Below, in pieces: positions 3,844-64,000 of a stretch of DNA of 64,000 bases. Each line of letters opens with the position of its first letter. Position 1 is the first letter of the stretch. A program made the translations under genes and the position numbers. The notes under the pieces are model-generated. The model was not told the DNA's origin. It did not search any database and saw only the letters and a list, made by a program, of their open reading frames with translations. The stretch comes from Yinghuangia soli (GTDB taxonomy: Bacteria; Actinomycetota; Actinomycetes; Streptomycetales; Streptomycetaceae), in the NCBI RefSeq assembly GCF_021502675.1, contig NZ_JAKFHA010000001.1, positions 396,855 through 460,854 on the forward strand, read 5' to 3'.

Positions 3844-3854
3844 GCGGCTCCCGA

Positions 3855-3902
3855 CACAGAGTTGCTGAACCACAGAGTTACTAAACCACAGAGTTACTGA
3901 AC
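3855..3902. repeat. Three 16-bp tandem direct repeats in the operon leader
   Basis: Three head-to-tail 16-bp units of the form CACAGAGTTRCTRAAC differ at only two positions. They fill the space between the TetR-like operator and the ribosome-binding site of the thiolase-like gene. They could be binding sites read on one face of the DNA, or a replication-slippage product in the 5' leader. Confidence 0.85.
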
Positions 3903-3912: not shown

Positions 3913-4213
3913 GTCAGCCTATCCCGGGCTCGCCGCGGGGTGTCAAGACCCGAACCGACGCACCGGCCGGATTTTCGACCCGGGGGTTAGCAGCAAATAC
4001 GCGGTGGGTAGCACCTGTTGGCCGGGGGTCGGCGGCCTTGCCGAAATGCCCCGCGGAAGGTCCCGCGGATCGCTGTGGCGGTCCGCAAGCTCCGCCGGGA
4101 TCTCTGGACTTCGTCAGGACTTCCGGACATCGTCACGTGTCACCGAGCAGCACCCGCACGACACCCGGACATGCGCGCCCGGCGCGCATCCGCAGCAGCG
4201 ATCGGAGTCACCC

Positions 4214-48256: not shown

Positions 48257-49132
48257 TCAGGGCTCCAGCATCAGCGTCGTCACGTTGCCGTTGAGGCGGT
48301 TCGGGGCGGCCGGGCCGCGTAGGGCCTGGGCCAGGAAGGCGCCGGGGGTCAGGCCGGTGGCGTTGCGGATTTCGCGGTTGAGGTGCGATTGGTCGTAGAA
48401 GCCGGCCCGGGAGGCGATCTCGGCGAGGGGGCGGCCGGCGGTGAGCATCCGGAGGGCGTGCTGCAGGCGCAGGATGCGCGCCGCGGACTTGGGGCTGAGG
48501 CCCATCTGCTCGCGGAAGCGGCGTTCGAGTTGGCGTTCGCTCCAGTCGAGTTCGGCGGCGAGGTCGCCGATCGGGAGGGTGCCGGCGGAGTCGTGCAGGA
48601 TGTCCCAGGCGTGCAGGACGCGCGGGGCGACGCCGGGTCCCGCGGACTGCCAGCGCACCAGCATCTCGTCGAGGGCGGCGAAGCGGGACGGCCAGTCGGG
48701 GAGTTCGGCGAGGCGCTCGGCGAGGCGGCCGACCACGGCGCCGCCGAGGTCGGAGGGTTCCACGAGGCGGTCCGCGACCTGGTGCATGGGCACGCCGAAC
48801 ATCGCGTACGCGGCCCAGGGGCGCATCACGATCTCGATGCCGTGCAGCGAGCCGGGGTGTTCGCCGATCGCGGCTTTGGTGCGCATGCCGGTGAACAGCG
48901 AGTTGAAGGTCGTCGGAGCCGTGGGGGCGTCCGCGTCGACCGGGGCGACCGCGAGGCGGTGGTCGAAGCCGAGCAGCAGAGTGGCCACGCCGACCGGGAG
49001 TTCGAGGCGGCGGCGCGGCTGGTCGGTGTCGATGCGCAGTCCCCGGTAGAAGCACACGCCGGGGCGTAAGCGGGGGTGCGGCGGTACCTCGACGATTTCG
49101 TGCGCGGGCGAGATGAGTGTGCGGTACGGCAT
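48257..49132 (-). CDS. AraC-family transcriptional regulator
   Basis: A 291-residue regulator. The N-terminal ~170 residues are an uncharacterised sensor domain (GVATLLLGFDHRLAV, GIEIVMRPWAAYAMFGVPMHQVADRLVEP). The C-terminal two-HTH AraC domain reads DLAAELDWSERQLERRFREQMGLSPKSAARILRLQHAL and LAEIASRAGFYDQSHLNREIRNATGLTPGAFLA. GGAGG lies seven bases before the ATG. It is directly downstream of the catabolic operon (229-bp gap) on the same strand, so control of that operon is possible but unproven. Confidence 0.92.
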   Translation of the reverse strand: MPYRTLISPAHEIVEVPPHPRLRPGVCFYRGLRIDTDQPRRRLELPVGVATLLLGFDHRLAVAPVDADAPTAPTTFNSLFTGMRTKAAIGEHPGSLHGIEIVMRPWAAYAMFGVPMHQVADRLVEPSDLGGAVVGRLAERLAELPDWPSRFAALDEMLVRWQSAGPGVAPRVLHAWDILHDSAGTLPIGDLAAELDWSERQLERRFREQMGLSPKSAARILRLQHALRMLTAGRPLAEIASRAGFYDQSHLNREIRNATGLTPGAFLAQALRGPAAPNRLNGNVTTLMLEP

Positions 49133-49361: not shown

Positions 49362-50945
49362 TCAATTGCGGTCGCGATAGGCGGCTCTGAGCTCCGTCTT
49401 CTGCACCTTCCCGGTCGCGTTGCGCGGCAGCGTGGCGACCACCTCGATGGTCCGCGGCACCTTGAAGTTGGCGAGCCGCTCGCGCAGCCAGGCACCGATC
49501 TCGTCGGCGTCCGCGGCCGCTCCGGGCTTGGCGATCACGTACGCCCGGCCCACCTCGCCGAGGCGGGCGTCCGGCACGCCGATGACCGCGGCCTCGGAGA
49601 CCGCCGGGTGCCGGGCCATGACCTGCTCGACCTCGGCCGGGGACACGTTGAAGCCGCCCACGATGAACAGGTCCTTGAGCCGGTCGGTGATGGCGAGGTT
49701 GCCGCGCGCGTCCAGGTGGCCGATGTCGCCGGTGTGCAGCCAGCCGTCCAGGTCGACCGCGGCCGAGGTGGCCTCCGGGTCGTCGAGGTAGCCGTGCGTC
49801 ACGTTGTAGCCGCGCACCCAGATCTCGCCGGGCTCGCCGGCCGGCCGGTCGCGGCCGTCCGGGCCGACCACCTTGACCTCGACGGACGGCAGCGCGCTGC
49901 CGCTGGTCGCGGCGACCGTCGCGGGGTCGTCGTCGTCCCGGCACATGGTCGCGGTGCCGTGGCACTCGGTGAGCCCGTAGGCGGTGATGAAGTTCTCGAA
50001 CGGCAGTTCCGCCTTGCAGCGCTCCACCAGCCGGACCGGGACCACCGCGGCCCCGGTCGCGGCGAGGCGCAGTGAGGACAGGTCGTGGCGGGCGCGGTCC
50101 GGGTGGTCGAGGAGTGCCGCGAACACCGTCGGGGCGCCGATCAGCACGCTGACCTTGAGCCGGTCGACGAGCGCGAGCACCTCCCCCGGGTCGAAGACCG
50201 CGAGCGGCAGGATCGCCGCGCCCCGGGTCAAGCAGGACAGCACGGCCGACTGCCCGCCCATGTGGAAGAACGGCAGCGGCACGAGGTAGCGGTCGCCCTC
50301 CTGGATGCCCCAGATCCCGGAGTACGCGGCATAGAGGCGGACCAGGGCCCGGTGGTGCAGCAGGACGCCCTTGGGTGCGCCGGTGGTCCCCGAGGTGAAG
50401 ATGATGTGCGAGGTGTCCGTCGGCCGGATGGAGTCGAGTACGGCGAGGGCGTGGTCGTCGGTCATGCGCTCGGCCTCGGCGAGGAAGCCCTCCCAGGAGA
50501 GCGGCGCGGGCGCCGCTTCGGGGGCCGCGTCGCCGACGTCGGCGGTGAGCCGCAGCGCGGGCAGCCCGGACGGCCCGGCCGCCTTGGCCAGTTCGCCGAC
50601 GTAGTCGTAGCCCAGGAAGCCCTGGTGCACGAACAGCATGACGGCCTGCGAGCGGCGCAGCAGGTCGGCGGCCTCGGCGCCGCGGTAGCGGGTGTTGACG
50701 GTGACGACGGTGCCGCCGGCGGTGAGGACGCCGAGTGCGGCGATGAGCCAGCGTGCCGAGTTCGGTGCCCAGATCGCCACCCGGTCTCCCGGCTCCAGCC
50801 CGCGGGCTTCCGCGGCGCGGGCGAACCGCATGACCTCGTCTGCGAGTTGCCGGAAGCTGAGCACGGTGTCGCCGTCCACCACGGCCTCGGCGTCCTCGTA
50901 GCGGTCCGCTGCGGTCCGGACCAGGTGCGCGACGGTCTGCTTCAT
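49362..50945 (-). CDS. AMP-forming acyl-CoA synthetase (FadD3/short-chain type)
   Basis: A 527-residue adenylate-forming CoA ligase. Motifs: IIFTSGTTGAPKGVLLHH, YGLTECHGTATMC, WLHTGDIGHLDARGNLAITDRLKDLFIVGGFNVSPAEVE and catalytic lysine in NATGKVQKTEL. It resembles FadD3-like ligases of ring-degradation pathways as much as medium-chain FadD. It ends the minus-strand catabolic operon; its ATG overlaps the preceding ligase stop (ATGA). Confidence 0.92.
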   Translation of the reverse strand: MKQTVAHLVRTAADRYEDAEAVVDGDTVLSFRQLADEVMRFARAAEARGLEPGDRVAIWAPNSARWLIAALGVLTAGGTVVTVNTRYRGAEAADLLRRSQAVMLFVHQGFLGYDYVGELAKAAGPSGLPALRLTADVGDAAPEAAPAPLSWEGFLAEAERMTDDHALAVLDSIRPTDTSHIIFTSGTTGAPKGVLLHHRALVRLYAAYSGIWGIQEGDRYLVPLPFFHMGGQSAVLSCLTRGAAILPLAVFDPGEVLALVDRLKVSVLIGAPTVFAALLDHPDRARHDLSSLRLAATGAAVVPVRLVERCKAELPFENFITAYGLTECHGTATMCRDDDDPATVAATSGSALPSVEVKVVGPDGRDRPAGEPGEIWVRGYNVTHGYLDDPEATSAAVDLDGWLHTGDIGHLDARGNLAITDRLKDLFIVGGFNVSPAEVEQVMARHPAVSEAAVIGVPDARLGEVGRAYVIAKPGAAADADEIGAWLRERLANFKVPRTIEVVATLPRNATGKVQKTELRAAYRDRN

Positions 50946-52450
50946 GCCTGTCTCCGTCCGAGGGCCGCGAGTTCGCCGGTCAGGACCTTGCCCGCTTCGT
51001 TGCGGGGCAGGGCGTCCACGGTGACATACCGGGCCGGAGCCTTGAAGGGGGCGAGGTGGGTCCGGCACCACGCGTCCAGGTCGGCAACGTCCGCTGTGTG
51101 CCCGGGAGTCGGCACGATGAAGGCGTACGGCACCTCGCCGAGACGGGGGTCGGGCATCCCGACGACGGCGGCGTCCGCGACGCCCGGGGCCAGTCGGAGG
51201 ACTTCGGCGACCTCGGCGGGGAAGACCTTCAGACCGCCGCGGTTGATCATGTCCGAGACCCGGCCGTCGATCCACAGGAAGCCCTCGGCGTCCACCCGGC
51301 CGATGTCGCCGGTACGGAACCAGCCGTCCGGGCCCAGGCGTTCGGCCAGCGCGGTGCCGTCCGCGTAGCCGGCCGCGAGTGCCGGGGTGCGCACCCACAG
51401 CTCGCCCGACGCGCCGCACGGGAGTTCGGTGCCGTCGGCGTCCGCCACGCGCAGCGCGACTCCGTCGTGGGGCCGGCCCACCGCGCCGAGCTTCTCCTCG
51501 CCGTAGGCGCGGGCGTCCGCGGCGTTCCAGCCCACGATCTCGCCGCCGATCTCGGTCTGCCCGTAGCAGTTGAGCACGGTGATGCCGAAGCGGTCGCGGA
51601 ACCGCCGGGCCTGGAACGGGGACAGCGGTGCGGTGATGCTGCGCACGTACCGCAGCGGGGCGAGGTCGGCGACCGCCGGGTCGTCGGCGAGCATCACCAT
51701 GGCGGCCGGCGGCAGGACGACGGACCGGATCCCGAAGCGCCGGACGTAGGCGGTGAAGCGGGCGGTGTCGAAGTGCTCCATGAGGATCACGGGCGCGCCG
51801 ACGCGGAAGGCGAAGAGCACGTTGTAGATGCCCGCCCACAGCGACATCGAGGTGGGGATGAGGTTGGGCATCGGCTCGGCGGGCCGGGTGCGGGCGCGGC
51901 CGACCAGCCGGTCGAGGACCGGTTCGAGGAGGGCGGAGATGCCGCTGTGCCGGAGCAGGACGGGCTTGGGGCGGCCGGTGGTCCCGGAGGTGAACTGGAT
52001 CAGGGCGGTGTCGGCGTCGTGCGCGGGTGCCCGGGGGTCGGCCAGGGCGTCGGGCGGCAGCCAGCGGTACGCGGACCGGACCACCTCCGGGACCGCGACG
52101 ACGACCGGCCGGCCCGGGAAGCGCCAGGCGCGCGTGGGGTCCGTGACGACCAGCGCCGGGCGGACCGCCGCCAGGACGCGGTCCACTTCGGCGTCCGTCA
52201 GGCGCGGGTTGAGCGGGACGTAGACGGCGTCGGCCAGCCACACCCCGAACAGTGCCGCGACCGCGTCCGCTCCGTCGCCGGGCATGACCGCGACGGCCTG
52301 GCCGGTGCGCACCCCGGCGGACCGCAGCACGGCGGCGAGCGCGTGTGCGCCGTCCCGCAGCGCGGCTCGGGACACTTCGCGCGTGTCGGTGTGGATCGCG
52401 ACGGTGGTGGCGTCGTCGTCGCGGGCGGCGAGCAGTTCGGTCAGGCGCAT
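50942..52450 (-). CDS. AMP-binding CoA ligase, second paralogue
   Basis: A 502-residue ligase with ALIQFTSGTTGRPKPVLL, NCYGQTEIGGE, WFRTGDIGRVDAEGFLWIDGRVSDMINRGGLKVFP and the lysine motif NEAGKVLTGEL. It is clearly diverged from its neighbour, so the two probably activate different acids or act at different stages. Coupled by overlaps on both sides: its start overlaps the upstream crotonase stop by 10 bp and its stop overlaps the next start by 4 bp. Confidence 0.9.
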   Translation of the reverse strand: MRLTELLAARDDDATTVAIHTDTREVSRAALRDGAHALAAVLRSAGVRTGQAVAVMPGDGADAVAALFGVWLADAVYVPLNPRLTDAEVDRVLAAVRPALVVTDPTRAWRFPGRPVVVAVPEVVRSAYRWLPPDALADPRAPAHDADTALIQFTSGTTGRPKPVLLRHSGISALLEPVLDRLVGRARTRPAEPMPNLIPTSMSLWAGIYNVLFAFRVGAPVILMEHFDTARFTAYVRRFGIRSVVLPPAAMVMLADDPAVADLAPLRYVRSITAPLSPFQARRFRDRFGITVLNCYGQTEIGGEIVGWNAADARAYGEEKLGAVGRPHDGVALRVADADGTELPCGASGELWVRTPALAAGYADGTALAERLGPDGWFRTGDIGRVDAEGFLWIDGRVSDMINRGGLKVFPAEVAEVLRLAPGVADAAVVGMPDPRLGEVPYAFIVPTPGHTADVADLDAWCRTHLAPFKAPARYVTVDALPRNEAGKVLTGELAALGRRQA

Positions 52451-53262
52451 CCCGCACCGTCCGGCGGAGCCCACTTCGGTTCGCGCTTCTCGGCGAAGGC
52501 GCGCGGGCCTTCCTCCTGGTCCGGGTGCCCCCACATGGACACCAGCTCCTTCGCGCCGGCCCGGCAGGCCTCGGTCAGGCCGGTCTCCAGCGCGCCCCAG
52601 AGCGCGCGTTTGGTGGCGGCCATCGCGGCGGGCGAGTTTCGAGCGATCTTCTCGCCGAGCTCCTGGGCCGCCTCGCGCAGCCGCTCGGGCGGGTCGACGA
52701 CCTCGCCGACCATGCCGAGTTCGTACGCGCGCTGCGCGGACATCCGCTCGTGCCGGCCGGTCAGCGCCATCCGCATGACCGCCTCGAACGGCATCTTGCG
52801 CAGCAGCCCGATCGCCTCGATCGCCACGACCTGGCCGACCGACACGTGGGGGTCGAAGAACTGCGCGTCGGAGGCCGCCAGCACGATGTCCGCATCGGCG
52901 ACCCAGTGGAACGCGCCGCCCGCGCACAGCCCGTTCACCGCGGTGATCACCGGCTTGGCGACCCCTTGGTGCCACGCAGTGAAGTGGACGTCGAACTCCT
53001 CCATCGACTGCCGGTACCGCTCCATCCCGACCCCGTCGCCGGCGATCTCCGCGACGTCCACGCCGGTCTGGAACGCCCGGCCTTCACCGGTGTGCACGAT
53101 GACCCGCACCTCGGGGTCGGCATCCAGCACCTGCCAGGCCACCGCGAATTCGTCGCGCATCGCGTTGTTCATCGCGTTCAGCCGGTCGGGCCGGTTGTTG
53201 ATCAACCAACCGACCGGACCGCGCCGTTCCAGCTTGAGGTGCTCGAGTTCCGGGTACGTCAC
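52441..53262 (-). CDS. Crotonase-family protein A (atypical active site)
   Basis: A 273-residue enoyl-CoA hydratase/isomerase-family protein. The oxyanion hole (GRAFQTGVDV, NGLCAGGAFHWVADADIVLA) is present. The usual catalytic glutamate after it (PEV/SEV-x-LG) is replaced by FFDPHVSVGQV, so simple hydration is uncertain. It is strongly similar to the next gene upstream, including 17 identical residues QRAYELGMVGEVVDPPE. GTG at 53262 overlaps the upstream stop by 4 bp with GGAGGGAAGG before it. Confidence 0.87.
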   Translation of the reverse strand: MTYPELEHLKLERRGPVGWLINNRPDRLNAMNNAMRDEFAVAWQVLDADPEVRVIVHTGEGRAFQTGVDVAEIAGDGVGMERYRQSMEEFDVHFTAWHQGVAKPVITAVNGLCAGGAFHWVADADIVLAASDAQFFDPHVSVGQVVAIEAIGLLRKMPFEAVMRMALTGRHERMSAQRAYELGMVGEVVDPPERLREAAQELGEKIARNSPAAMAATKRALWGALETGLTEACRAGAKELVSMWGHPDQEEGPRAFAEKREPKWAPPDGAGCA

Positions 53263-54014
53263 GTCGCCTTCCCTCCCACGCCGGGCTGTTCCAGGGCCTG
53301 CCACAGCGCCGCCTTGGCGGCGGCCAGTCGTTCGGGCGGGTGCCGGGCGATGGTCTCGGCCAGCGCCTGGGCCGCCTCGGTCAGGCTCTCGGGCGGGTCG
53401 ACCACCTCGCCCACCATGCCCAGTTCGTACGCCCGCTGCGCGGTGATGCGTTCGTGGCGGCCGGCCAGCACCATCCGCATGACCGGTTCGAACGGCATGC
53501 GTCGGGCCAGGGTGACCGCTTCGGCGGCGGAGACCTGGCCGACGGTGACGTGCGGGTCGAGGAAGACCGCCGCGGAGGACGCGATGACCACGTCGGCGTC
53601 CGCGACGAAGTGCAGTCCGCCGCCCGCGCAGATGCCGTTGACCGCGGCGATCACCGGTTTGCGGACCTTGTTGTGATGGGCCGTCAGCCGCAGTTCGGAG
53701 CGTTTGGTGCGCCGGGACTGCTCGCGGAGCGCGGCGGGGTCGCGGGCGAGCTGGGCGACGTCCAACCCGGTCTGGAAGGCCTTCCCGCGGCCGGTGTTCA
53801 CGATCACCCGGACCGCCGGGTCGTCATCCAACTCGCGCCAGGCGTATTCGAGTTCGTCGAGCATCGCGGCGTCCATGGCATTGCCCTGCGCGGGCCGGTC
53901 GAACACCAGCCAGCCGACCGGGCCGCGGCGTTCGACGGCGAGCCGGGTGTAGGTGCGCGGCGCGGCCCCGGCGGAACCGGCGGACGGGGACGGTGAGGCG
54001 GGCGAGGCGGTCAT
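53259..54014 (-). CDS. Crotonase-family protein B, tandem paralogue
   Basis: A 251-residue crotonase with the same atypical site (FLDPHVTVGQV) and GKAFQTGLDV, NGICAGGGLHFVADADVVIA. It is probably the tandem-duplication partner of crotonase A; more than half of aligned positions are the same by eye. Two such paralogues could form a mixed trimer or act on successive intermediates. ATG at 54014, 3 bp after the acyl-CoA dehydrogenase stop. Confidence 0.87.
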   Translation of the reverse strand: MTASPASPSPSAGSAGAAPRTYTRLAVERRGPVGWLVFDRPAQGNAMDAAMLDELEYAWRELDDDPAVRVIVNTGRGKAFQTGLDVAQLARDPAALREQSRRTKRSELRLTAHHNKVRKPVIAAVNGICAGGGLHFVADADVVIASSAAVFLDPHVTVGQVSAAEAVTLARRMPFEPVMRMVLAGRHERITAQRAYELGMVGEVVDPPESLTEAAQALAETIARHPPERLAAAKAALWQALEQPGVGGKAT

Positions 54015-54017
54015 CGG

Positions 54018-55313
54018 TCAGCTCCTCGGCACGTCGCGCCAGGGGGTGTCCAGCCACGGGTCGGGTTCGCGCGGCAGGCCCAGCACCCGCTCGGCGAGGA
54101 TGTTCCGGTTGACCTCGGACGTCCCGCCTTCGATGGTGTTGGCCCGGCTGCGCAGCATGCCGCGGACCTCGTGCGGCAGCGCCTCCTCGTACGTGTCCGC
54201 ATCGGATTCCCAGGCCTGCCCGAAGGCGCCGAGGAGTTCGGCGGCCATCGCCTGCATGCGCTGGTTGAGTTCGCCTTGGTGGACTTTGCCGATCGAGCTC
54301 GCGGGGCCGGGTGCGCGGCCCGCCTTGACGCCGTCGCGCACGCGTTCGTTGGTCCAGGCCCGGATGCGCTCCTCGCTGTAGAGGCGCATGAGTTCCTGGC
54401 GTACGACGGGGTCGGTCCAGCCGCCGGGGCGGCCTTCGGCGCTGATCCGCCGGGCCAGGGCGACGAGGTGCCCGACGCCGGAGCCGCCGATGCGGTCCAC
54501 GCCGCCCGAGCCGGCCCCGGAGACCATCTGGCGCTCGCCGGAGAGCGTCGCGCCGGCCACCTTCCAGCCGTCGCCGACCGCGCCGATCCGGTAGGCGTCC
54601 GGTACGTGGGCGCGGTCGAGGAACACCTCGCTGAATTCGGCCTCGCCGGCCATGGTCCGCAACGGCCTTATCTCGAGGCCGGGTTGGCGCAGGTCGATGA
54701 GGAAGTACGTGAGGCCCTTGCGTTTGGTGCGGTCCGGATCGGTCCGCGCCAGCAGCACGCCGAAGTCCGCCCGGAACCCCCAGGTCGTCCAGACTTTCTG
54801 GCCGGTGACCGCCCAGTCGCCGGCCGCGTCGCGTTCCGCGCGGGTGGCGAGCGAGGCGAGGTCGGAGCCGGCGCCGGGCTCGCTGAACAGCTGGCACCAG
54901 AACTCCTCGTTGCGCACGATCGGCGGCAGGAAGCGCAGCTTCTGCGCCTCGGTGCCGTGCGCGAACAGCGCGGGGGCCGCGTTGCCGAGGCCGAGCGGGT
55001 TGAGGCGGCCGAGGTTGTACGGCCGCAGCACGGCGTCCGCGGCGCGGGCCTCCTCGCGGGTCAGGCCGAGGCCGCCGTACTCCGGTTCCCAGGTGGGTGC
55101 GACCAGTCCGGAGCGGCCGAACACCGGGTACCAGGACTCGTATGCGCTGCGCGGGCGGACCGCGCGGATCGCCGCCCGGCCATGTGCGGCGGCGTCGATC
55201 CAGGCGGCCGGGACGTACGCCTCGACCCAGGCGCGGACCGCGCGGGCGACGTGCGCGACCCGGCTGCGGTCCGGGAGCAGCAGTTTGCCGTCGGCGTCGA
55301 CGAGGTCGGCCAC
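54018..55313 (-). CDS. Acyl-CoA dehydrogenase, FadE-type (probable catalytic-loop subunit)
   Basis: A 431-residue acyl-CoA dehydrogenase. QLFSEPGAGSDLASLATRA is the FAD-binding region, VTGQKVWTTWGFRADFGVLLART the middle domain, and RSRANTIEGGTSEVNRNILAERVLG the C-terminal loop with the usual glutamate position. Slightly long for the family and with a tail DPWLDTPWRDVPRS. Together with the second dehydrogenase at 57.5 kb it recalls the paired FadE subunits of mycobacterial cholesterol side-chain degradation. GTG start at 55313, 7 bp after the upstream stop. Confidence 0.9.
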   Translation of the reverse strand: MADLVDADGKLLLPDRSRVAHVARAVRAWVEAYVPAAWIDAAAHGRAAIRAVRPRSAYESWYPVFGRSGLVAPTWEPEYGGLGLTREEARAADAVLRPYNLGRLNPLGLGNAAPALFAHGTEAQKLRFLPPIVRNEEFWCQLFSEPGAGSDLASLATRAERDAAGDWAVTGQKVWTTWGFRADFGVLLARTDPDRTKRKGLTYFLIDLRQPGLEIRPLRTMAGEAEFSEVFLDRAHVPDAYRIGAVGDGWKVAGATLSGERQMVSGAGSGGVDRIGGSGVGHLVALARRISAEGRPGGWTDPVVRQELMRLYSEERIRAWTNERVRDGVKAGRAPGPASSIGKVHQGELNQRMQAMAAELLGAFGQAWESDADTYEEALPHEVRGMLRSRANTIEGGTSEVNRNILAERVLGLPREPDPWLDTPWRDVPRS

Positions 55314-55320
55314 GTCCGGG

Positions 55321-56163
55321 TCACCGGCCTTCGAACGCGGCCGGGCGCTTGCCGGTGAAGGCGGCCATGCCCTCGCGGAAGTCGTGGCTGCGCGAGGAGA
55401 GTTCCATGGCGAAGCCCTCGTCCCGGAGCTGCTGTTCCAGCGTCGCGGAGTTGCCGTTGTGCAGCAGCCACTTGGTCAGGCCGAGGGCGACGGTCGGTCC
55501 GCTCGCGAGCCCGGCGGCCACCTCGGCGGCGGCCTTGTCCAGGCCGGATTCGGGGACGACGCGGTCGACGAGCCCCCACTCCTCTGCGGTGCGGGCGTCG
55601 ACGCGGTCGCCGAGCAATAGCATCTTGCGGGCCCGGACTTCGCCGATGCGGCGCGGGAGCAGCCAGGTCATGCCGCTGTCCGGGGTGAAGCCGCGGTCCG
55701 AGAACGGGGCCCAGAAGCGTGCGTCGTCGGCGGCGACGGTCACGTCCGCGGCGAGTGCCAGGGCGAGGCCGATGCCGGCCGCCCAGCCGCGTACCGCGCA
55801 CACGATGGGGACCTGCACGGTCAGCATGAGCGGGATGAGGCGGTGGGCCTGGGACGGGAGGCGGCGCTGGATGCTGCCGACGCGCGGCTTGGCGCCCGCC
55901 CCCTGGGTCTCCTCGGCGGCATTGCGCTGGACGATGTCGGCGCCGGTGCAGAAGTGCGCGCCGCGGGCGGCGAGGAGGACGGCGCGGACCGCCTCGTCGC
56001 GGCCGGCGGCGTCGAGGGCGTCGATGAGCCCGGCGACCATGGTGTCGTCGAGGGCGTTGCGCTTGGCGGTCCGGTCGAGGGTCAGGTGCAGGATGCCGGT
56101 CGCGGGGTCGAGGGCGATGTCGAGGCCGGGGACGGGGGTGCCGCCGAAAGGTGCGCCGGTCAT
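55321..56163 (-). CDS. Enoyl-CoA hydratase/isomerase family protein C
   Basis: A 280-residue crotonase distinct from the tandem pair. The oxyanion hole lies in GAHFCTGADIV and VRGWAAGIGLALALAADV. Where hydratases have two glutamates it shows FSDRGFTPDSGMTWLLPR, an aspartate-containing pattern seen in some isomerases and dehalogenase-like crotonases. The ATG overlaps the dehydratase stop by 4 bp. Substrate unknown. Confidence 0.88.
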   Translation of the reverse strand: MTGAPFGGTPVPGLDIALDPATGILHLTLDRTAKRNALDDTMVAGLIDALDAAGRDEAVRAVLLAARGAHFCTGADIVQRNAAEETQGAGAKPRVGSIQRRLPSQAHRLIPLMLTVQVPIVCAVRGWAAGIGLALALAADVTVAADDARFWAPFSDRGFTPDSGMTWLLPRRIGEVRARKMLLLGDRVDARTAEEWGLVDRVVPESGLDKAAAEVAAGLASGPTVALGLTKWLLHNGNSATLEQQLRDEGFAMELSSRSHDFREGMAAFTGKRPAAFEGR

Positions 56164-57479
56164 GCAGGGCCGTCCTCTCCGCCGGCCGGGCCGGCGTCCT
56201 CGACTGCCGCGGTGCGGTCGCGTTCGGCGAACCGGGCGGCGGCGGCTTCCAGGGCGCGGGCCAGGCTGCTGCCGGTGCCGTCGCCGGCTCCGGGGGGCGC
56301 GCCGGGCGGGTCCGGCAGGCGTACCTCGCCGTGCTCGCGGCTGGGCAGCAGGATGGTGGCGTGGCCGGGCGTGGTGGTCTCGCCGCGCTGGTTGACCGCG
56401 GCGATGTCCAGGTCGACGGCCGGGCGTCCGCCGTCCGCAAGGTACTTGCGGGTCACGGTGCCGCGCAGCCACTGCGTGTCGCCCGTGTAGTTGAACGCCC
56501 GGAACTCGCAGTCCAGCTTCCACAGCCAGGCGTCGTCGCCCATCCAGTCGGTGCACAGGTGGATGAGCCAGTTCTCCCGCATGCGGCCGTAGTCGAAGGT
56601 GCTCGCGTTGCCGGAGCGCTTGGCGAACTCCGGGTCCCAGTGGATGCGCTGCAGGACGTCGGGGATGCCCTGCGGGTCGCGGTGGTAGAAGCGCGGGATG
56701 CGGCGGCGGTTGGCGGCGCCGAGCCGCAGCGCCTTGACGCCGTACATTCCCATGCCCATGCCGACGTGCCAGCAGACCAGGTCGGTGACCGTGAACGGGC
56801 CCTTGACCAACGGGCCGACGGAGTCGCCGACTTCGACGTCCTCCCACCAGCGGGGCTGGGCGCCGCGCGGCCGCTCGGCGGCGTACTGCGCGTCGATCGC
56901 CGCGATGTCCGCCTCGGTGTACGTGGCGAGTTCGACGTCCTTCTCGCGCGCCTTGCCGCGCGCCTTGCCGCGTTCGGTGCGGATCATCAGGCGGTACTGG
57001 GCGCTCAGCAGCGTGCCGGTGTCGTCGCCGAAGACCTGCCCGGTCCACTCGTGTACGGCCCGCTCGGCGAAGGCGCTGGCCTTGTCGTGCACGCCGACCA
57101 GCGCGTTGCGGCGCCGGACGCGGCGGTTCGGCAGCAGCGGCGCCCACCATTCGCGCATGCTCGCCGAGTAGAAGGCGTGCACGCCGCGCAGCGGGTCGCC
57201 CTTCATCAGCGCGCGGTGCTCGTCGGCGACCTCCCGGACCTCGTCCTCGCCGACGAGGGTGTCGCCGCCGGCGAGTGCGGGCGGCGCGATGGGGCTCTTC
57301 CACCGGGTCTCGGGACCGTAGTCCGGGTCGCACCACAGCGGGTTGTCGTCGCCGTACGACTCGGCCACGTGCCGGAAGGCGTCGGTGCCCGGCAGCAGGT
57401 AGTGCGGGGGTGCGGTGTGCGGTTCCGGGATGCCGATCCGGGCGCGGAGCCGGTCGATCGCGTCATCCGTGATGGGCAT
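56160..57479 (-). CDS. MaoC/FAS1-type acyl dehydratase (double hotdog)
   Basis: A 439-residue protein with an N-terminal MaoC-like dehydratase domain (HYLLPGTDAFRHVAESYGDDNPLWCDPDYG, with the D-x4-H-like hydratase region) and a second hotdog-like region after residue ~200 (WWEDVEVGDSVGPLVKGPFTVTDLVCWHVGMGMG). Such proteins hydrate or dehydrate 2-enoyl-CoAs too bulky for crotonases, as in steroid and terpenoid catabolism. It heads a run of genes coupled by overlaps or very short gaps, and an AT-rich palindrome lies 36 bp before its ATG. Confidence 0.85.
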   Translation of the reverse strand: MPITDDAIDRLRARIGIPEPHTAPPHYLLPGTDAFRHVAESYGDDNPLWCDPDYGPETRWKSPIAPPALAGGDTLVGEDEVREVADEHRALMKGDPLRGVHAFYSASMREWWAPLLPNRRVRRRNALVGVHDKASAFAERAVHEWTGQVFGDDTGTLLSAQYRLMIRTERGKARGKAREKDVELATYTEADIAAIDAQYAAERPRGAQPRWWEDVEVGDSVGPLVKGPFTVTDLVCWHVGMGMGMYGVKALRLGAANRRRIPRFYHRDPQGIPDVLQRIHWDPEFAKRSGNASTFDYGRMRENWLIHLCTDWMGDDAWLWKLDCEFRAFNYTGDTQWLRGTVTRKYLADGGRPAVDLDIAAVNQRGETTTPGHATILLPSREHGEVRLPDPPGAPPGAGDGTGSSLARALEAAAARFAERDRTAAVEDAGPAGGEDGPA

Positions 57480-57515
57480 CGCTTACCTCCGCCGGGGACG
57501 GGTGCGCCGCAAGGC

Positions 57516-57533
57516 TATCTTTATAATGATTGC
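57516..57533. promoter_or_regulatory. AT-rich palindromic operator candidate (copy 1)
   Basis: CTATCTTTATAATGATTG follows the symmetric scheme CTAT-N2-TTATAA-N2-AT-N-G. It shares 12 consecutive bases (CTATCTTTATAA) with the site at 62970. TTATAA-type sequence is rare in this GC-rich DNA. It lies in the 58-bp spacer before the dehydratase gene. Confidence 0.6.
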
Positions 57534-57537
57534 AGTA

Positions 57538-58737
57538 TCAAGGGTGCTGCTCGTCCAGCAAGGCGGCCATGCGGGCGCGGTGCGCGGCAGGCGGGTCGAA
57601 CAGTTCGCGCGTCGACCGGGCGCGTTTGAGGTACAGGTGCGCGGAGTGCTCCCAGGTGAAGCCGATGCCGCCGTGCAGTTGCACGGCCTCCTGGGCCGCG
57701 TGCACGTACGCCTCCGCGCAGTACGCCTTGGCGAGCGAGGCCACCAGCGGGAGTTCGGGGTCTCCGCAGGCCCACGCCCCGAGTGCGCGGTAGGCCGCCG
57801 AGTGCGCGGACTCCACCTGCACGAGTACGTCGGCGAGCTTGTGCTTGACGGCCTGGAACGACCCGATCGGCCGGCCGAACTGGACGCGCGTGCGGGCGTA
57901 GTCGGCCGTGGTGTCCAGCAGGAAGCGGGCGCCCGCGGCCTGCTCGGCGCACAGCAGCACAGCAGCCATGTCGAGGACGTGGCCGACCAGCGGTTCCGCG
58001 GCGCCGGCGGACTCGAGGCGCCGGGCGGGGGTCCGGTCGAAGGCGATGCCTGCCTGGCGCCGGGTCAGGTCCAGCGTGGCGAGCCGACGGCGCGTCAGCC
58101 CGGCTGCCCGGTCCGGGTGTTCGACGACGAAGAGGCTGCTGCCGCTGGGCGTGTCGGCGGCCACCAGCAGCAGGTCGGCGGCCATGCCGTCGGTCACACA
58201 GGTCTTGGCGCCGGTCAGCAGCCAGCGGCCTTCGGCATCGGGCTCCGCGGTGGTGGCGTACGCGTCGCGGCGCCAGCGGCCGTCCGCTTCGGCGACCGCG
58301 ACCGTCGCGACGGTCTCCCCCGCGGCGATCCCGGGCAGGTACGCCGCGCACGCCTCGGTGTCCCCCGAGGCCACCAGAGCCTGCGCGGCGAGCATCGTGG
58401 AGAAATAGGGCGCGCAGCAGAGCGCCCGGCCCAGCTCGGCGCAGGCGACGCCGAGTTCCTCGATGCCGCCCGCTCCCCCGTACGCCTCGGGGATCGCGAG
58501 CCCGGTCAGGCCGAGCTCGCCGGACAGCCGCCGCCACAGTGCGGGGTCGTGCCCGGATCCGCTCTCCATGGCTGCGCGTACTGAGGCTTCCGGTGCGTGC
58601 TCGGCGAGGAAGGCGCGCACGACGCGGCCCAGCTCCGCGCGCTCCTCGGCACTCCCGTCCGAGGCACGGGCGGACGAGGAGGGCGGGGAGGACTGGGACT
58701 GCGAGGAGGATGCGGATTCGGTGTTCCGGGGTGCCAC
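57538..58737 (-). CDS. Acyl-CoA dehydrogenase, second FadE-type subunit
   Basis: A 399-residue acyl-CoA dehydrogenase-fold protein. It has GLTGLAIPEAYGGAGG, GAKTCVTDGMAADLLLVAA and QLHGGIGFTWEHSAHLYLKRA. The C-terminal loop carrying the usual catalytic glutamate (GGTSE/GEGTS) is absent; the chain ends TRELFDPPAAHRARMAALLDEQHP. This is what is seen in the partner subunit of heteromeric FadE complexes. A Ser/Gln-rich leader of ~30 residues precedes the domain. GTG start at 58737 has GAGGAG upstream. Confidence 0.87.
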   Translation of the reverse strand: MAPRNTESASSSQSQSSPPSSSARASDGSAEERAELGRVVRAFLAEHAPEASVRAAMESGSGHDPALWRRLSGELGLTGLAIPEAYGGAGGIEELGVACAELGRALCCAPYFSTMLAAQALVASGDTEACAAYLPGIAAGETVATVAVAEADGRWRRDAYATTAEPDAEGRWLLTGAKTCVTDGMAADLLLVAADTPSGSSLFVVEHPDRAAGLTRRRLATLDLTRRQAGIAFDRTPARRLESAGAAEPLVGHVLDMAAVLLCAEQAAGARFLLDTTADYARTRVQFGRPIGSFQAVKHKLADVLVQVESAHSAAYRALGAWACGDPELPLVASLAKAYCAEAYVHAAQEAVQLHGGIGFTWEHSAHLYLKRARSTRELFDPPAAHRARMAALLDEQHP

Positions 58738-58850: not shown

Positions 58851-61220
58851 ATGCGAATCGACGACGGCACTCTCGGACCGGCCGGGACGCCCCCGGGCCG
58901 GCCTCCTGTCCTGTCCGGCCGCCGCACGCGCGGCCAAGCGCTGGCGGCCCTGCTCCTGTGCGGGGGCCTGGTCGCGGCCGGCTGCACGTCCTCGGACAAG
59001 CCCGACGCCTCGCCGGGTGCGACCACCCCCGTCCCCGGGGGCACGAGCACCTTGACCGGCGAGGCGGGCGCGATCCGGGCCAAGATGATGCGGCTCAGCA
59101 CGTACAACTCGTGCGACGCGCTGCTGACCGACTTCCGGAAGGCCGCCCTGGCCCGCTCGAAGCAGACGTTCCTGGAGAGCGGCGACATGGCCGCCGCGGC
59201 ACCCGCCATGCCGGGTGCGGCCCCGCCCGGATCGGGCTTCACCGGCGGCGGCACCACCGGCGGCGAGCGGAGCCTGCAGCAGGACGCCGCGGGCAAGTCC
59301 GGAGCCGGGGCCGCAGAGGCCCCCGCCGCGGCCGCGCCGAACGGCGGCACCCAGCCCAGCGGCGCGCCCGGGTACTCCGGCACGAACACCCATGAGCAGG
59401 GTGTCGACGAGCCGGATCTGGTCAAGACCGACGGCAAGCGGCTGCTCACCGTCGCGGACGGCACGCTGCGGGTCTTCGACGCGGCCGGCCGCACGCAGAC
59501 CGGCAAGCTGGCGCTGCCCGGCGGCCGCGCAAGCGAGATGCTGCTGTCCGGGGACCGTGCGCTGCTCATCCTGCCGGGCGGCAACGTGGCGTACGACGGC
59601 GGTCCGGGCATGCCGGTGCCGATGCCGGGCGACGCCACCACACGGTCCTCCAAGGACGCCATGGGCCCCGACCGGGCCCGCATGGTCCTCGTCGACATCT
59701 CGGGCGCGCCGCGCATCCTGGGCGAACTCGCGGTGGACGGCGGCTACGTGGACGCCCGCCAGATCGGCACGACCGCGCGCGTCGTCGTCCGCTCCTTCCC
59801 GCGCGTCCCGGTCCCCGAGAATTTCAAGGGCGACTACCAGAAGGCGTACGAGACGGCGGTCGGCAAGACCACCGTGGACAACTGGCTCCCGGCCTACACC
59901 CTCACGTCCGGCGGCCAGAGCAGCTCCGGGCGCCTGGTGGACTGCAACGCGGTGAGCCGCCCGGACACCGAGCCCGGCGCCCCCGGCCACTCGGGTGCCT
60001 CGACGCTTTCGGTGCTGTCCTTCGACCTGACGCGCGACCTGGGCACCGGGAGCCCGGTCACGGTCGCCGCGGACGCGGACACCGTGTACGCGTCCGCCTC
60101 GAACCTGTACGTGGCGTCGAACTACTACACCGTGCCGGGTACTTCCCGGCAGTCGATGGTCATGACGCCGCCGCGGACCGCGATCTACCAGTTCGACATC
60201 TCCGGGTCCGGGCAGCCCAAGCACGTCGCCTCCGGCGACGTCGAGGGCACGCTGCTCAACCAGTACTCGCTGTCCGAGTACGACAAGCACCTGCGGGTGG
60301 CCACCACCGCGCAGATCTTCGCCCCGCCGCCCTCGGCCCAGGGCACTACCGGCTCTGTCTCGACCTCGACGGGCGGCTCGGGCAAGGACAAGTCCACCGG
60401 CACCGGCGTGAAGCCGGGCCGCGGTCCGGCCGGTGCGGCCGAGCGGATCGCTCCCGTGCCGACGAGCACCGAGAGCGCGGTCACCGTCCTGGAGCGCAAG
60501 GGCGGCGACCTGGTCCAGGTCGGCCGGGCCGGCGGCCTCGGGCGCGGCGAACGCATTTACGCGGTCCGTTTCGTGGGCCCGGTCGGGTATGTGGTGACCT
60601 TCCGCCAGACCGACCCGCTGTACACCCTCGATCTGGCCGTCCCGACCGCCCCCAAGGTGCTCGGCGAGCTCAAGATCAACGGCTACTCGGCTTACCTGCA
60701 CCCGCTGGAGGGCGGCAAGCTCATCGGCGTCGGGCAGGACGCGACGGACACCGGCCGGCGCACCGGGACGCAGGTGTCGCTGTTCGACGTGGCCAACCTC
60801 GCGGACCCGAAGCGGATCGCGAACTACACGGTGGCGATGGGCAATTCCGAGGCCGAGATGGACCCGCACGCCTTCCTGTACTGGCCCGCGACCGGGATCC
60901 TCGTCATCCCGCTGCAGACCGTCGGCGCTCCCGGCAGCGGGTCGGCCTCCAACGGAAGCAGCACCGGCGGCAGCACCGGCGGCTCGGGCCCCGCGCAGAT
61001 CGCCCCGGACCGCGCCTACGCGCCGTCCTCGCAGGCGCTGGTCCTCAAGCTGCAAGGCGGCTCCTTCACCGAGGTGGGCAAGATCCAGCACCCGGGCGGC
61101 TACAGCCAGATGCGCCGCTCCGTGGTGATCGGCGACGACCTGTGGACGGTGTCCACGAAGGGCGTCATGGTCAACGGGCTCGGCGACCTGGCGCAGCGCG
61201 CCTGGGTGCCGTTCAGCTGA
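58851..61220 (+). CDS. Secreted lipoprotein with C-terminal beta-propeller domain (COG4880-like)
   Basis: A 789-residue exported protein. The signal peptide LALLLCGG-like segment (RRTRGQALAALLLCGGLVAAGC) ends in a lipobox-like cysteine. A Gly/Ala/Pro-rich low-complexity stretch follows, then THEQGVDEPDLVKTDGKRLLTVADGTLRVFD, the signature of the COG4880 beta-propeller family. Later repeats (VVTFRQTDPLYTLDLAVPTAPKVLGELKINGYSAYLHPL, DPHAFLYWPATGILVIPL) are propeller blades. Function unknown; probably a cell-surface binding protein. It is divergent from the dehydrogenase at 58737. Confidence 0.88.
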   Translation: MRIDDGTLGPAGTPPGRPPVLSGRRTRGQALAALLLCGGLVAAGCTSSDKPDASPGATTPVPGGTSTLTGEAGAIRAKMMRLSTYNSCDALLTDFRKAALARSKQTFLESGDMAAAAPAMPGAAPPGSGFTGGGTTGGERSLQQDAAGKSGAGAAEAPAAAAPNGGTQPSGAPGYSGTNTHEQGVDEPDLVKTDGKRLLTVADGTLRVFDAAGRTQTGKLALPGGRASEMLLSGDRALLILPGGNVAYDGGPGMPVPMPGDATTRSSKDAMGPDRARMVLVDISGAPRILGELAVDGGYVDARQIGTTARVVVRSFPRVPVPENFKGDYQKAYETAVGKTTVDNWLPAYTLTSGGQSSSGRLVDCNAVSRPDTEPGAPGHSGASTLSVLSFDLTRDLGTGSPVTVAADADTVYASASNLYVASNYYTVPGTSRQSMVMTPPRTAIYQFDISGSGQPKHVASGDVEGTLLNQYSLSEYDKHLRVATTAQIFAPPPSAQGTTGSVSTSTGGSGKDKSTGTGVKPGRGPAGAAERIAPVPTSTESAVTVLERKGGDLVQVGRAGGLGRGERIYAVRFVGPVGYVVTFRQTDPLYTLDLAVPTAPKVLGELKINGYSAYLHPLEGGKLIGVGQDATDTGRRTGTQVSLFDVANLADPKRIANYTVAMGNSEAEMDPHAFLYWPATGILVIPLQTVGAPGSGSASNGSSTGGSTGGSGPAQIAPDRAYAPSSQALVLKLQGGSFTEVGKIQHPGGYSQMRRSVVIGDDLWTVSTKGVMVNGLGDLAQRAWVPFS

Positions 61221-61311: not shown

Positions 61312-61647
61312 TCAGTCGCTCGCCGGAAGTGCCTTGGCCTCCTTGACCACCAGCGGTTCGCGGCCGTCCGCGAGGGTGCCCGTGCCGGCTTTGGTCACCA
61401 GGATCTCGAAGGTCTCGTCGGCGGCGAGCGTGTACCGCTTGCCGAGCAGTGCGCCGCCGGCCAGGTCCGGTTCGGGGGCCAGGCCGCCCGGGGGTTCGGC
61501 GTCGATGCCGAGCATCGGCAGGCCCCCGCAGGTCAGGTCCACCGCCGCGGCGGGCGGCCGGACGACGATCACTTCGGCGGTGCACACCTGGCTGCGCAGC
61601 CGGGCGCCGGTCCGGATCGGTGCCCGGGTGCTGTCGGTTTCGGTCAC
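61312..61647 (-). CDS. Conserved small protein coupled to the amidohydrolase, unknown function
   Basis: A 111-residue protein whose middle (QVCTAEVIVVRPPAAAVDLTCGGLPML) has two cysteines and ends with KRYTLAADETFEILVTKAGTGTLADGREPLVVKEAKALP, a beta-rich pattern. I know no named family. The GTG at 61647 overlaps the amidohydrolase stop by 4 bp and has GAGGAG before it, so the two are translationally coupled and may form a complex or handle the same compound. Confidence 0.75.
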   Translation of the reverse strand: MTETDSTRAPIRTGARLRSQVCTAEVIVVRPPAAAVDLTCGGLPMLGIDAEPPGGLAPEPDLAGGALLGKRYTLAADETFEILVTKAGTGTLADGREPLVVKEAKALPASD

Positions 61648-62945
61648 GTGCTGCTCCTCGGGGGCGCCGCGGACGCGGCGCCGGTCAGGCGGTTCCAGCT
61701 CTCCAAGTCCCGCTGCCCGGCCGGGCGGCCGACGCGGGTGACGGTGTCGACATCGCCCGCCTCGGCGCGCAGCGCGGCGACCGTGCAGCGCTCGCGGGGC
61801 CGTACGGCGAACGGGTCGAAGCGGTAGTGCCGCAGCGCGTTGCGGTGCGTGATGCCGTCCACGAGGTCGTCCGGCAGGTCCTTGAAGAGCGTCTCCAGCT
61901 CTTCCGGCGCATGCGGCCAACTGCTGTCGGAGTGCGGGTAGTCCGACTCCCAGCAGACGTTGTCGGTGTTGAAGTGGTGCAGCAGGTCGACGCCGACCGC
62001 GTCGCTGATGAAGCAGCACAGCATGTGCTTGCGGAAGATCTCGGCGGGCCCCGAAACCCCCTCGGGGAAGGCCGCCTTGGTCCAGCCGGAGTGCCGGCGC
62101 TGGACGTGCTCGGCGCGCCACAGGAAGTACGGAATCCACCCGATGTCGCCCTCGGTGAGCGAGAAGCGCAGGTCGGGGAAGCGGTGCCAGATGTCCGCCC
62201 AGATCAGTTCGACGAGCGAGAACGTCGACATCACCGACGACAGCGTCATGTTGACGCTCGCGGGCGCGTCGGACGAGGACGGGGCCCGGCGCGAGGACGA
62301 ACCCACGTGCAGGCACAGCACGGTGCCCTCGTCGCAGGCGGCCGCGAACAGCGGGTCCCAGTAGCGGGTGTGGATGCTGGGCAGTTGCAGCGCCTCGGGG
62401 TTCTCCGAGAAGGTCACCGCGTGCACGCCCTTGGCGGCCAGCCGGCGCAGTTCGGCGGCCGCGTGCTCGACGTCGTACAGCGGCAGGATGCCGCACGGGA
62501 TGAACCGCTCGGGGTACGCCCCGCACCATTCGTCGACGTGCCAGTCGTTGTAGGCGCGGATCATCACCTCGTTGACGGCGCGGTCCGGGCCCTGCCACAG
62601 CACCTGCCCGGAAAAGCCGGTGAAGTTGGGGAAGTTGAGGCCGGCGAGCTGGCCGCCGGCGCTCATGTCCCGGACCCGTTCGTGCACGTCGTAGCAGCCG
62701 GGGCGCATCTCGTCGTAGCGGCTGGCGTCGATGTTGAACATCTCGGGCGGCTTGCCGGCCACCGCGTTGAGGCCGAGGTCGCGGCCGCGGGCGTCGCCGT
62801 ACATCCACTGCTGGACGCCGTCGTCGCGCACCACGACGCGCGGGGCCCGGTCGCGGTAGCGCGCCGGGACGTGGGCGTCGAACATCGTGGCCGGCTCACA
62901 GATGTGGTCGTCCACGCTGACGAGGATCAGGTCGTCCTTGCGCAC
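61644..62945 (-). CDS. Amidohydrolase-2 family metal-dependent hydrolase/decarboxylase
   Basis: A 433-residue amidohydrolase of the ACMSD-like group. VSVDDHICEP provides the first metal-binding motif (in place of HxH, D-x-H), YNDWHVDEWC and TVLCLHVGSSS the barrel residues, and the late WESDYPHSDSSWPHAPEE the conserved aspartate/histidine. Members hydrolyse or decarboxylate aromatic and cyclic acids in catabolic clusters. GTG at 62945 has GGAGG upstream. A palindromic site like that at 57516 lies 25 bp before the start. Confidence 0.88.
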   Translation of the reverse strand: MRKDDLILVSVDDHICEPATMFDAHVPARYRDRAPRVVVRDDGVQQWMYGDARGRDLGLNAVAGKPPEMFNIDASRYDEMRPGCYDVHERVRDMSAGGQLAGLNFPNFTGFSGQVLWQGPDRAVNEVMIRAYNDWHVDEWCGAYPERFIPCGILPLYDVEHAAAELRRLAAKGVHAVTFSENPEALQLPSIHTRYWDPLFAAACDEGTVLCLHVGSSSRRAPSSSDAPASVNMTLSSVMSTFSLVELIWADIWHRFPDLRFSLTEGDIGWIPYFLWRAEHVQRRHSGWTKAAFPEGVSGPAEIFRKHMLCCFISDAVGVDLLHHFNTDNVCWESDYPHSDSSWPHAPEELETLFKDLPDDLVDGITHRNALRHYRFDPFAVRPRERCTVAALRAEAGDVDTVTRVGRPAGQRDLESWNRLTGAASAAPPRSST

Positions 62946-63003: not shown

Positions 63004-63921
63004 CTAGCCGTTGGCGGCAACGGAGTCGAGGAGTCCGAGCAGCGCTCCGGCGAACACGTCGTTGTCGTCGCCGACCACCATGTGGCCCGCGTCCGCGACG
63101 TCGGCGAAGGTGGATCCGGGGATCAGGTCGAGCATTTCGTGCACCGCCTCCAGGCTCACCACGTCGGACTGGCGGCCGCGCACGACGAGGGTGGGCACCG
63201 CGATCTTGCGGGCCGCGTCGGCGAGGCGCTCCGGGGTGACGACCGGGCCGCGGCCGGTAGTGCCGCCCAGGCTGCCCATGAACTGCGGGTCCCAGTGCCA
63301 GTACCAGCGGCCGTCGGCGTGCTGCCGGACGTTGCGGGCCAGCTTGGCGTGGTCGGTCTGCCGGGGCCGGTCCGGCTGGTACTCGTGGAGCGCGTCGGCG
63401 ACCTCGCCGAGGTCCGCGAAGCCGGCGCGGTGCGCGAGCATGAACGCGGCGATGCGGTCGGTGCCCTCCCGCTCGGTGCGGTGCGTGATGTCGACGAGCA
63501 CCAGGCCGCGGGCGTACGCGTCGCCCTCCCCCTCGCCTTCGGCGATCAGCGAGATCCACCCGCCGAACGACGCGCCGACGAGGACCGGCGGGCGGCCCTG
63601 CTCGGCGGCCACCGCCCGGGACACCGCGCGCACGTCGGCGACGAACGCGTCGATGCTGTAGTCGCCGTCCGCCGACCAGTCGCTCTCGCCGTGCCCGCGC
63701 TGGTCGAGGGCGAGCGCGGTCCAGCCCTGCCCGGCCAGGGTGGCCGCGGAGCGCGTCCACGACCCGCGGGCCTGGCCGCCGCCGTGCAGCAGCAGGACGG
63801 TCCCGGCCGACCCGCCCTCCGGGTCCCACCGGTCGCCGACCACCTCGAGGGGGCCGCCGGCGTCGTTGCGGGAGCCGTATTCGGCGGCGTGGAACCGCAC
63901 CTGACGGGGCGTCGGGGGCAT
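63004..63921 (-). CDS. Alpha/beta hydrolase
   Basis: A 305-residue alpha/beta hydrolase. LLLHGGGQARGSW is the oxyanion segment, GASFGGW the nucleophile elbow with its serine, RGRQSDVVS the acidic residue and AGHMV the catalytic histidine, so the triad is complete. Such enzymes open lactones, esters or ring-cleavage products in catabolic clusters. AGGAG lies seven bases before the ATG at 63921. The 58-bp gap to the amidohydrolase holds that gene's own operator, suggesting joint or separate control. Confidence 0.9.
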   Translation of the reverse strand: MPPTPRQVRFHAAEYGSRNDAGGPLEVVGDRWDPEGGSAGTVLLLHGGGQARGSWTRSAATLAGQGWTALALDQRGHGESDWSADGDYSIDAFVADVRAVSRAVAAEQGRPPVLVGASFGGWISLIAEGEGEGDAYARGLVLVDITHRTEREGTDRIAAFMLAHRAGFADLGEVADALHEYQPDRPRQTDHAKLARNVRQHADGRWYWHWDPQFMGSLGGTTGRGPVVTPERLADAARKIAVPTLVVRGRQSDVVSLEAVHEMLDLIPGSTFADVADAGHMVVGDDNDVFAGALLGLLDSVAANG

Positions 63922-64000
63922 GGCGACTCTCCTAGCGGTCGTACCGGCCCGCCCGGGGGGCGGGACGTAGCGGAACACAGGCGTACGCGGCCCCTGGGGC

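Follow-up and report, generated by a model that had tools for sequence, protein, structure and literature searches.

FadD3 is the HIP-coenzyme A (CoA) ligase of steroid degradation, and the paired acyl-CoA dehydrogenases Tcur3481 and Tcur3483 have a steroid role as well. PtmU3 is described as a non-heme diiron monooxygenase acting on diterpenoid-CoA, which it hydroxylates at C-5 (PMC10127204), and a second paper states that it takes CoA-ligated substrates (PMC7782822). Such proteins have been grouped as amidohydrolase-related dinuclear oxygenases (AROs); the Pfam family PF04909 also includes carboxylases, hydratases and hydrolases, according to sections of PMC10811679. The dit cluster for abietane diterpenoids encodes a ring-hydroxylating dioxygenase (DitA), a putative ring-cleavage dioxygenase (DitC) and the cytochrome P450 DitQ, as given in a portion of PMC13063091. 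Here, we describe a locus in Yinghuangia soli that bears on all of these systems. It consists of eight genes on the minus strand, from 58737 down to 49362 of a 64,000-nucleotide stretch, called the window below (positions 396,855 to 460,854 of contig C1, NZ_JAKFHA010000001.1, in a 9.7-Mb genome of 91 contigs). We consider the chances evenly balanced that this is a catabolic cluster for a polycyclic or alicyclic, terpenoid- or steroid-like carboxylic acid processed as CoA thioesters; both the substrate and every reaction are what we infer.

The eight-gene locus and its conserved core

In 5' to 3' order, the genes encode ACAD1, an acyl-CoA dehydrogenase (57538..58737); a 439-residue MaoC-like double-hotdog protein (56160..57479); ECH1, a PaaG-like crotonase of the isomerase type (55321..56163); ACAD2, an acyl-CoA dehydrogenase with a catalytic-type glutamate (54018..55313); the crotonase ECH2 (53259..54014) and its tandem paralogue ECH3 (52441..53262); and the acyl-CoA ligases LigA (50942..52450) and LigB (49362..50945), the latter FadD3-like. 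Every frame is open with no inner stop, and GC content by codon position is of the coding type. Pfam found two AMP-binding ligases, three ECH_1 crotonases and two acyl-CoA dehydrogenases among the eight proteins. Thus, gene ends, Pfam and a structural model agree with the earlier note, which had listed two CoA ligases, three crotonases, two acyl-CoA dehydrogenases and a double-hotdog dehydratase on one strand. Its description of the genes as mostly overlapping by 4–10 bp is just true: the seven junctions measure +58, -4, +7, +3, -4, -10 and -4 bp, so that four overlap (4, 4, 10 and 4 bp) but three are gapped (58, 7 and 3 bp). A scan for promoter and terminator consensus sequences found nothing above shuffled sequences. 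Among the NCBIfam families listed as matches, no cutoff, including those of the steroid families, was reached by any of the eight proteins. The seven proteins other than the MaoC-like one are therefore relatives of ring- and side-chain-degradation enzymes and not members of named families.

Genomes in GTDB were scanned with an alignment of the MaoC-like protein, which yielded at least 568 confirmed relatives. The best 80 of these, 60–74% identical, were kept, and all locus counts rest on them. Their hosts are Acidimicrobiia, mycobacteria, Frankia, Actinomadura, Thermomonospora, Nonomuraea, Blastococcus and others, with a few Myxococcota, Pseudomonadota and Acidobacteriota and one metagenome-assembled genome (MAG) labelled Bacillota. 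Scoring covered 74 loci, several of them on short contigs too small for the whole core; six of the 80 were left out for having no MaoC call of at least 45% identity (L065, L097, L098, L100, L105 and L112). Gene starts came from a simple gene caller, and some are mis-set in the relatives' loci, for example those of ACAD1, ECH2 and LigB.

The earlier note had proposed searching for the same gene order across actinomycetes, and the search succeeded. Of the 74 scored loci, 34, including 29 mycobacterial ones, have six genes side by side on one strand in the order MaoC-ECH1-ACAD2-ECH2-ECH3-LigA. An arrangement repeated at that frequency is not due to chance. Chance or artefact as the origin of the gene set was rejected, since the frames are intact and the order is conserved. 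In a Baikal MAG (L065, outside the 74-locus count), the tblastn order is that of the window from MaoC through LigB. ACAD1 and LigB are lineage-dependent additions to the six-gene core. Within the window's own family, a MaoC match of at least 45% was found in four of 150 genomes, three of them of the same genus. Together with the phylum sample described below and the best 80 loci, this indicates that the cluster is frequent in certain groups but rare elsewhere. No description of the eight-gene cluster was found in the literature searched, which is in line with the earlier suggestion of an undescribed catabolic route, although that term has to be taken also in the sense of 'unstudied but common in some groups'.

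Relatives were also found on plasmids. The MaoC-like protein has 33 such records, all below 60% identity, in contexts of paired dehydrogenases, crotonases and thiolase, none with a known substrate; ECH3 has only two matches at 1e-50, of 42–44%. In a genome of the same genus (G018), the cluster at L041 is rearranged, with MaoC and ACAD1 divergent from the remainder. Its MaoC groups with Thermomonosporaceae and its ECH2 and ECH3 with those of the window, which suggests a chimeric origin. One related MAG bears the family name Candidatus Hopanoidivoransaceae. This is a name only and was not used as evidence; no paper on the family was found in the literature searched.

Active-site residues of the encoded enzymes

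The crotonases ECH2 and ECH3 are 62% identical over 218 residues. When ECH3 was aligned to PDB entry 2hw5 ('Enoyl-CoA hydratase'), which we take to be human ECHS1 with catalytic glutamates E144 and E164, His and Arg were found at the two catalytic positions. Both glutamates are replaced by His/Arg in every one of 89 ECH3-type rows; of the 18 ECH2-type rows, 17 have the same replacement and one has a gap. ECH2 and ECH3 thus lack the residue pair of canonical enoyl-CoA hydratases of the ECHS1 type, and the normal two-glutamate hydratase chemistry is not usable by them. Judged from these residues, the pair would carry out another crotonase reaction, most likely C–C hydrolysis or ring opening. A tree was built from 53 ECH2/ECH3 rows of selected loci. 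Its ECH3-type copies form one group of 27 rows (support 100/99), that of the window included, with the window's ECH2 outside it, which points to an old duplication. The best NCBIfam match of both proteins is EchA19 (NF051848), at 154.1 for ECH2 and 182.6 for ECH3 against a cutoff of 400. ECH1 scored 208 on its best NCBIfam match, PRK05981 (cutoff 351), and 194.9 on the PaaG isomerase model TIGR02280 (cutoff 345.15). Its Asp162, a residue with a role in PaaG-type isomerases, is conserved in all but two of 53 rows (51).

Sequence searches with the 439-residue protein found nothing in Pfam or NCBIfam at 0.001 or in the PDB at 0.01. An AlphaFold model of the protein (mean pLDDT 81.6, pTM 0.86) has its best structural matches among MaoC-like double-hotdog dehydratases (5i7n, 4v12 and MeaC), so that the predicted fold is that of MaoC-type (R)-hydratases, of which MeaC and MSMEG_6754 are the closest known examples. 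The motif of such hydratases is GDxNP[LIV]H, and the protein reads GDxNPLW for GDxNPLH. At the position of the motif His (49), the 77 family rows have Trp (66), Tyr (4) or a gap (7), and His in none, while the G, D, N and P of GDxNP are kept in all 70 rows with letters. An alignment of 36 rows (34 of the 66 MaoC stretches, the window's and that of L013) gives the same residue picture. One half of a double-hotdog enzyme may be inert, and thus Trp or Tyr alone does not exclude hydratase activity.

These residues bear on the reading of the locus as ordinary β-oxidation of branched-chain or dicarboxylic acyl-CoAs. All parts do have generic β-oxidation folds, but the loss of both glutamates from ECH2 and ECH3 in every row bar the gapped one, the absence of the motif His from all 70 MaoC rows with a letter and the patchy occurrence (four of 150 family genomes), a poor fit to a housekeeping role, make this improbable.

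ACAD2 has the catalytic-type glutamate, Glu395, in 60 of 61 rows, with one gap. At the corresponding position ACAD1 has Asp, and 11 aligned rows have Gly (nine) or Asp (two); by this alignment, ACAD1 is the probable non-catalytic partner of ACAD2. In the PDB, ACAD1 is best matched by Tcur3481 and ACAD2 by Tcur3483, two proteins that share entry 6wy8. On NCBIfam, ACAD1 scored 206.9 on IpdE2 (NF050027; cutoff 450) and ACAD2 scored 186 on PimC (cutoff 624). Among the ligases, which were assigned by Pfam and by gene-order counts, LigA scored 291 on PRK06187 (cutoff 476), and LigB reached 653.1 on FadD3 (NF005801), whose cutoff is 657. The earlier note had likened the gene mix to side-chain or ring degradation, and the Tcur3481/Tcur3483 matches and the FadD3-like score of LigB bear this out.

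Could the locus then be a variant of a known steroid pathway, degrading side chains or rings C/D of the cholesterol or bile-acid type? The dehydrogenase pair, the near-cutoff LigB score and the weak likeness of ACAD1 to IpdE2 speak for it. The same genome, however, has a second FadD3-type ligase on contig C56 (220357-221880), which passes the equivalog cutoff at 771.9, with a CoA_trans gene, a nitronate monooxygenase and a PRK07938 crotonase 22–26 kb on. The eight-gene locus is thus probably not the main steroid ring route of this genome, and its assignment as the main steroid HIP cluster was not favoured. Also, the eight proteins reach no cutoff of a steroid family, and ECH2 and ECH3 lack the hydratase glutamates. 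We therefore regard the steroid variant as possible but unlikely. The accompanying C56 genes lie at about 244000-247500 (L044, L045), and the region is possibly the genome's steroid ring C/D cluster.

A candidate oxygenase upstream of the operon

The earlier note had seen no ring-cleavage dioxygenase here and had advised a look at flanking oxygenases. That the locus has no oxygenase nearby is not supported: a gene at 61644..62945, on the minus strand and 2.9 kb upstream of ACAD1, encodes a PF04909 'amidohydrolase' whose PDB matches are DitZ (7.5e-92) and PtmU3 (2e-35). In excerpts of two papers, the ARO metal site comprises three His and three carboxylate ligands, with an acidic residue marking dinuclear members (PMC7782822, PMC10127204). 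Mapped by alignment, all seven residues (D12, H14, H213, E265, D335, H338 and D340) are present in the window's protein, as expected of an ARO, and on this ground it is likely an oxygenase. A reading of DitZ and PtmU3 as thioesterases was dropped, as the papers make PtmU3 a monooxygenase; no literature on DitZ itself was found, and it is known by its PDB name only. Relatives of the ARO were counted when their genes encoded at least 330 residues. The AROs of type F8 in the loci have the full metal-site set in 21 of 21 cases, identical to that of the window, and those of type F12 have it in 20 of 20, with Glu at the seventh position. Of ten F14-type AROs, three are complete and seven lack the N-terminus; ten further window-like AROs comprise five complete ones, two with Ser at the seventh position and three without the N-terminus, one of which also has Ser.

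Two readings of the locus turn on this homology. In one, a BadI-like crotonase would open the ring of a monocyclic substrate, such as a monoterpenoid, cyclohexane- or naphthenic-type acid; the small core, the two atypical crotonases and the matches of ACAD1 and ACAD2 to PimD/PimC and cyclohexanecarboxyl-CoA dehydrogenase models speak for it. These matches are weak, however, with scores far under cutoff, and the closest solved ARO relatives are PtmU3, acting on a diterpenoid-CoA, and DitZ, named after a diterpenoid cluster; we hold monocyclic substrates to be rather unlikely. A biosynthetic tailoring cluster, with the ARO acting as PtmU3 does in platensimycin biosynthesis, is highly improbable despite that homology. 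No terpene synthase is among the scanned neighbours, a scan that did not take in every window gene, and many mycobacteria and Acidimicrobiia retain the core close to genes for thiolase, SDR (short-chain dehydrogenase/reductase) and regulators, which looks catabolic.

Linkage of the ARO to the core was scored in the 39 loci of at least 20 kb. An ARO-family gene is present in 23 of 23 mycobacterial and nine of 16 other loci. The chance expectation is about 0.05 per 20 kb in the window's genome, which has 23 matches over 9.7 Mb; for other genomes it is no higher than about 0.16 per 20 kb with all first-look candidates counted. AROs at least 43% identical to that of the window occur in 19 of the 39, in mycobacteria, Acidimicrobiia, Geodermatophilaceae (70–74%) and one proteobacterial MAG. 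In the sister genome G001, the linked ARO is 90% identical. When 20 genomes were searched whole at E 1e-100 and match positions were compared with locus ranges, 12 had the ARO inside the locus. Of the five nearest ARO paralogues in the window's genome, two lie about 1.5 kb from a LigB-like stretch (C45 and C56). Plasmids carry 25 ARO records at 1e-40, all below 60% identity and none with a known substrate; on a Massilia plasmid, genes for two acyl-CoA dehydrogenases and one crotonase come immediately after the ARO. Some mycobacterial loci, such as L061, have up to three ARO-family genes (F14, F8 and F12) around the core, plus a TauD dioxygenase, a 2-hydroxyacid dehydrogenase and a thiolase.

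A number of observations weigh against a conserved terpenoid- or steroid-like acid pathway that includes the ARO. The ARO is not in the transcription unit of the operon, being separated from it by an opposite-strand lipoprotein gene (58851-61220). It is in none of the flanks at seven of the 16 non-mycobacterial long loci, and two of the nine that have one (L069 and L117) have distant AROs only, at most 31% identical. Among the 20 genomes searched whole, two have the ARO on the contig of the locus at distances of 36 kb (L099) and 59 kb (L103), three have it elsewhere (G018 and the genomes that carry L088 and L096), and in three it was not found at E 1e-100 (L106, L110 and L111). In some mycobacteria, the linked ARO differs from the genome's best match to that of the window, and the mycobacterial loci are, by shared ancestry, non-independent samples. 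No Rieske ferredoxin or reductase, as described for AibH2-like AROs, was found among the scanned neighbours, the genome as a whole not having been searched. Relatives of ACAD1 (at least 40%) and of LigB (at least 45%) each occur in only eight of the 74 loci. The MaoC protein was found in six of 396 genomes of the phylum sample at E 1e-100, a count that may miss cases, as at most four candidates per genome were scored.

Proposed route and comparison with known systems

The pathway set is likely larger than eight genes, as indicated by the genes past the window and by the order in G001, which runs from a GntR-family gene through thiolase, hydrolase and ARO to the eight genes and an AraC-type gene. 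In the window, a neighbour scan found an α/β hydrolase gene (63004..63978, minus strand; the true start may be 63921) between the ARO and a thiolase gene past the window's end (64057-65271 in the window frame). Beyond it are a gene for a GntR/FCD regulator (65318-66193) and, in the opposite orientation, genes for a class III CoA-transferase (66179-67381) and an SDR (67472-68275); the starts of these and of the thiolase gene come from the simple gene caller. Members of the GntR family also occur in three Geodermatophilaceae loci, two of which share the CoA-transferase family with Actinophytocola, Nonomuraea and Sphaerimonospora. After LigB, a family match identified an AraC-type regulator (48257..49132, minus strand), as also follows LigB in G001; a role in the pathway would be a guess. 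The intervening lipoprotein, a plus-strand β-propeller protein by Pfam (PF09826), is also present in G001 by position (a 922-residue call in L040) and is probably outside the pathway. No Mce or KstR-type gene was found among the window genes scanned, which were not all of them. A Peripla_BP_6 binding protein of the ATP-binding cassette import type recurs near the core in several MAGs, in L052 by Pfam and in L049, L050, L108 and L122 by similarity, and may be part of an importer. Two thiolase-type genes stand at the left end of the window, at 957-2147 and 2635-3873; the second has Thiolase_C_1 and is followed by an aldehyde dehydrogenase gene at 4004-5638.

The proposed class of substrate is terpenoid- or steroid-like because of the ARO relatives, the FadD3-like ligase, the Tcur3481/Tcur3483-like dehydrogenases and the P450, SDR and aldehyde dehydrogenase genes that adjoin the core in Actinomadura and Thermomonospora. 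In the proposed route, LigA, LigB or the CoA-transferase past the window would form the CoA ester, and the ARO would hydroxylate an unactivated C–H bond of the acyl-CoA, like PtmU3 on diterpenoid-CoA. An ACAD1-ACAD2 heteromer, with ACAD2 catalytic, may then desaturate the product, the MaoC-like protein may hydrate it and the PaaG-like ECH1 may shift a double bond. ECH2 and ECH3 would provide a non-hydratase crotonase step, C–C hydrolysis or ring opening being favoured, and the SDR and thiolase would complete the route. We have little confidence in a bolder version, in which the core is a widespread ring-breaking pathway for polycyclic terpenoids, possibly triterpenoids such as hopanoids, that combines an amidohydrolase-fold dinuclear monooxygenase acting on a CoA thioester with an obligate His/Arg crotonase pair as a new ring-opening C–C hydrolase. 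To our knowledge, no breakdown route for hopanoids has been described.

If the terpenoid- or steroid-like reading is true, many environmental mycobacteria and uncultured Acidimicrobiia have in common an uncharacterised route for terpenoid-like acids, whose oxygenase is concealed by annotation as 'amidohydrolase'. For new chemistry, the His/Arg crotonase pair offers a definite target that can be expressed, and the ligases, ARO and dehydrogenases form a short assay list that would name the substrate.

Among known systems, Tcur3481/Tcur3483 (PDB 6wy8, 6wy9) are the closest PDB sequences of ACAD1 and ACAD2 and share the two-chain arrangement. However, the E-values are only 2.5e-41 and 5e-31, Ala (6wy9) or Gly (6wy8) of Tcur3483 aligns to the ACAD2 glutamate, and ACAD1 relatives stand at just eight of 74 related loci. 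Similarly, LigB resembles FadD3 by its score of 653 but stays under the cutoff of 657, whereas the other FadD3 of the same genome scores 772. The dit cluster is linked to the window by DitZ, the closest solved sequence relative of its ARO, whose membership in dit is taken from the name. Unlike dit, with its DitA, DitC and DitQ, the operon has no ring-hydroxylating or ring-cleavage dioxygenase among its scanned neighbours, and the sole P450, a partial match, lies about 13.6 kb past the window end. With DitZ, PtmU3, AibH2 and SfbO, the window's ARO shares all seven metal-site residues. It differs from PtmU3 in having Asp at the Glu313 position, as do AibH2 and LynB7, and from AROs such as AibH2 in that no Rieske partner was seen among its scanned neighbours. 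Catabolism of rings and side chains as CoA thioesters is a known kind of system; what is unusual in this locus is the oxygenase and the crotonases.

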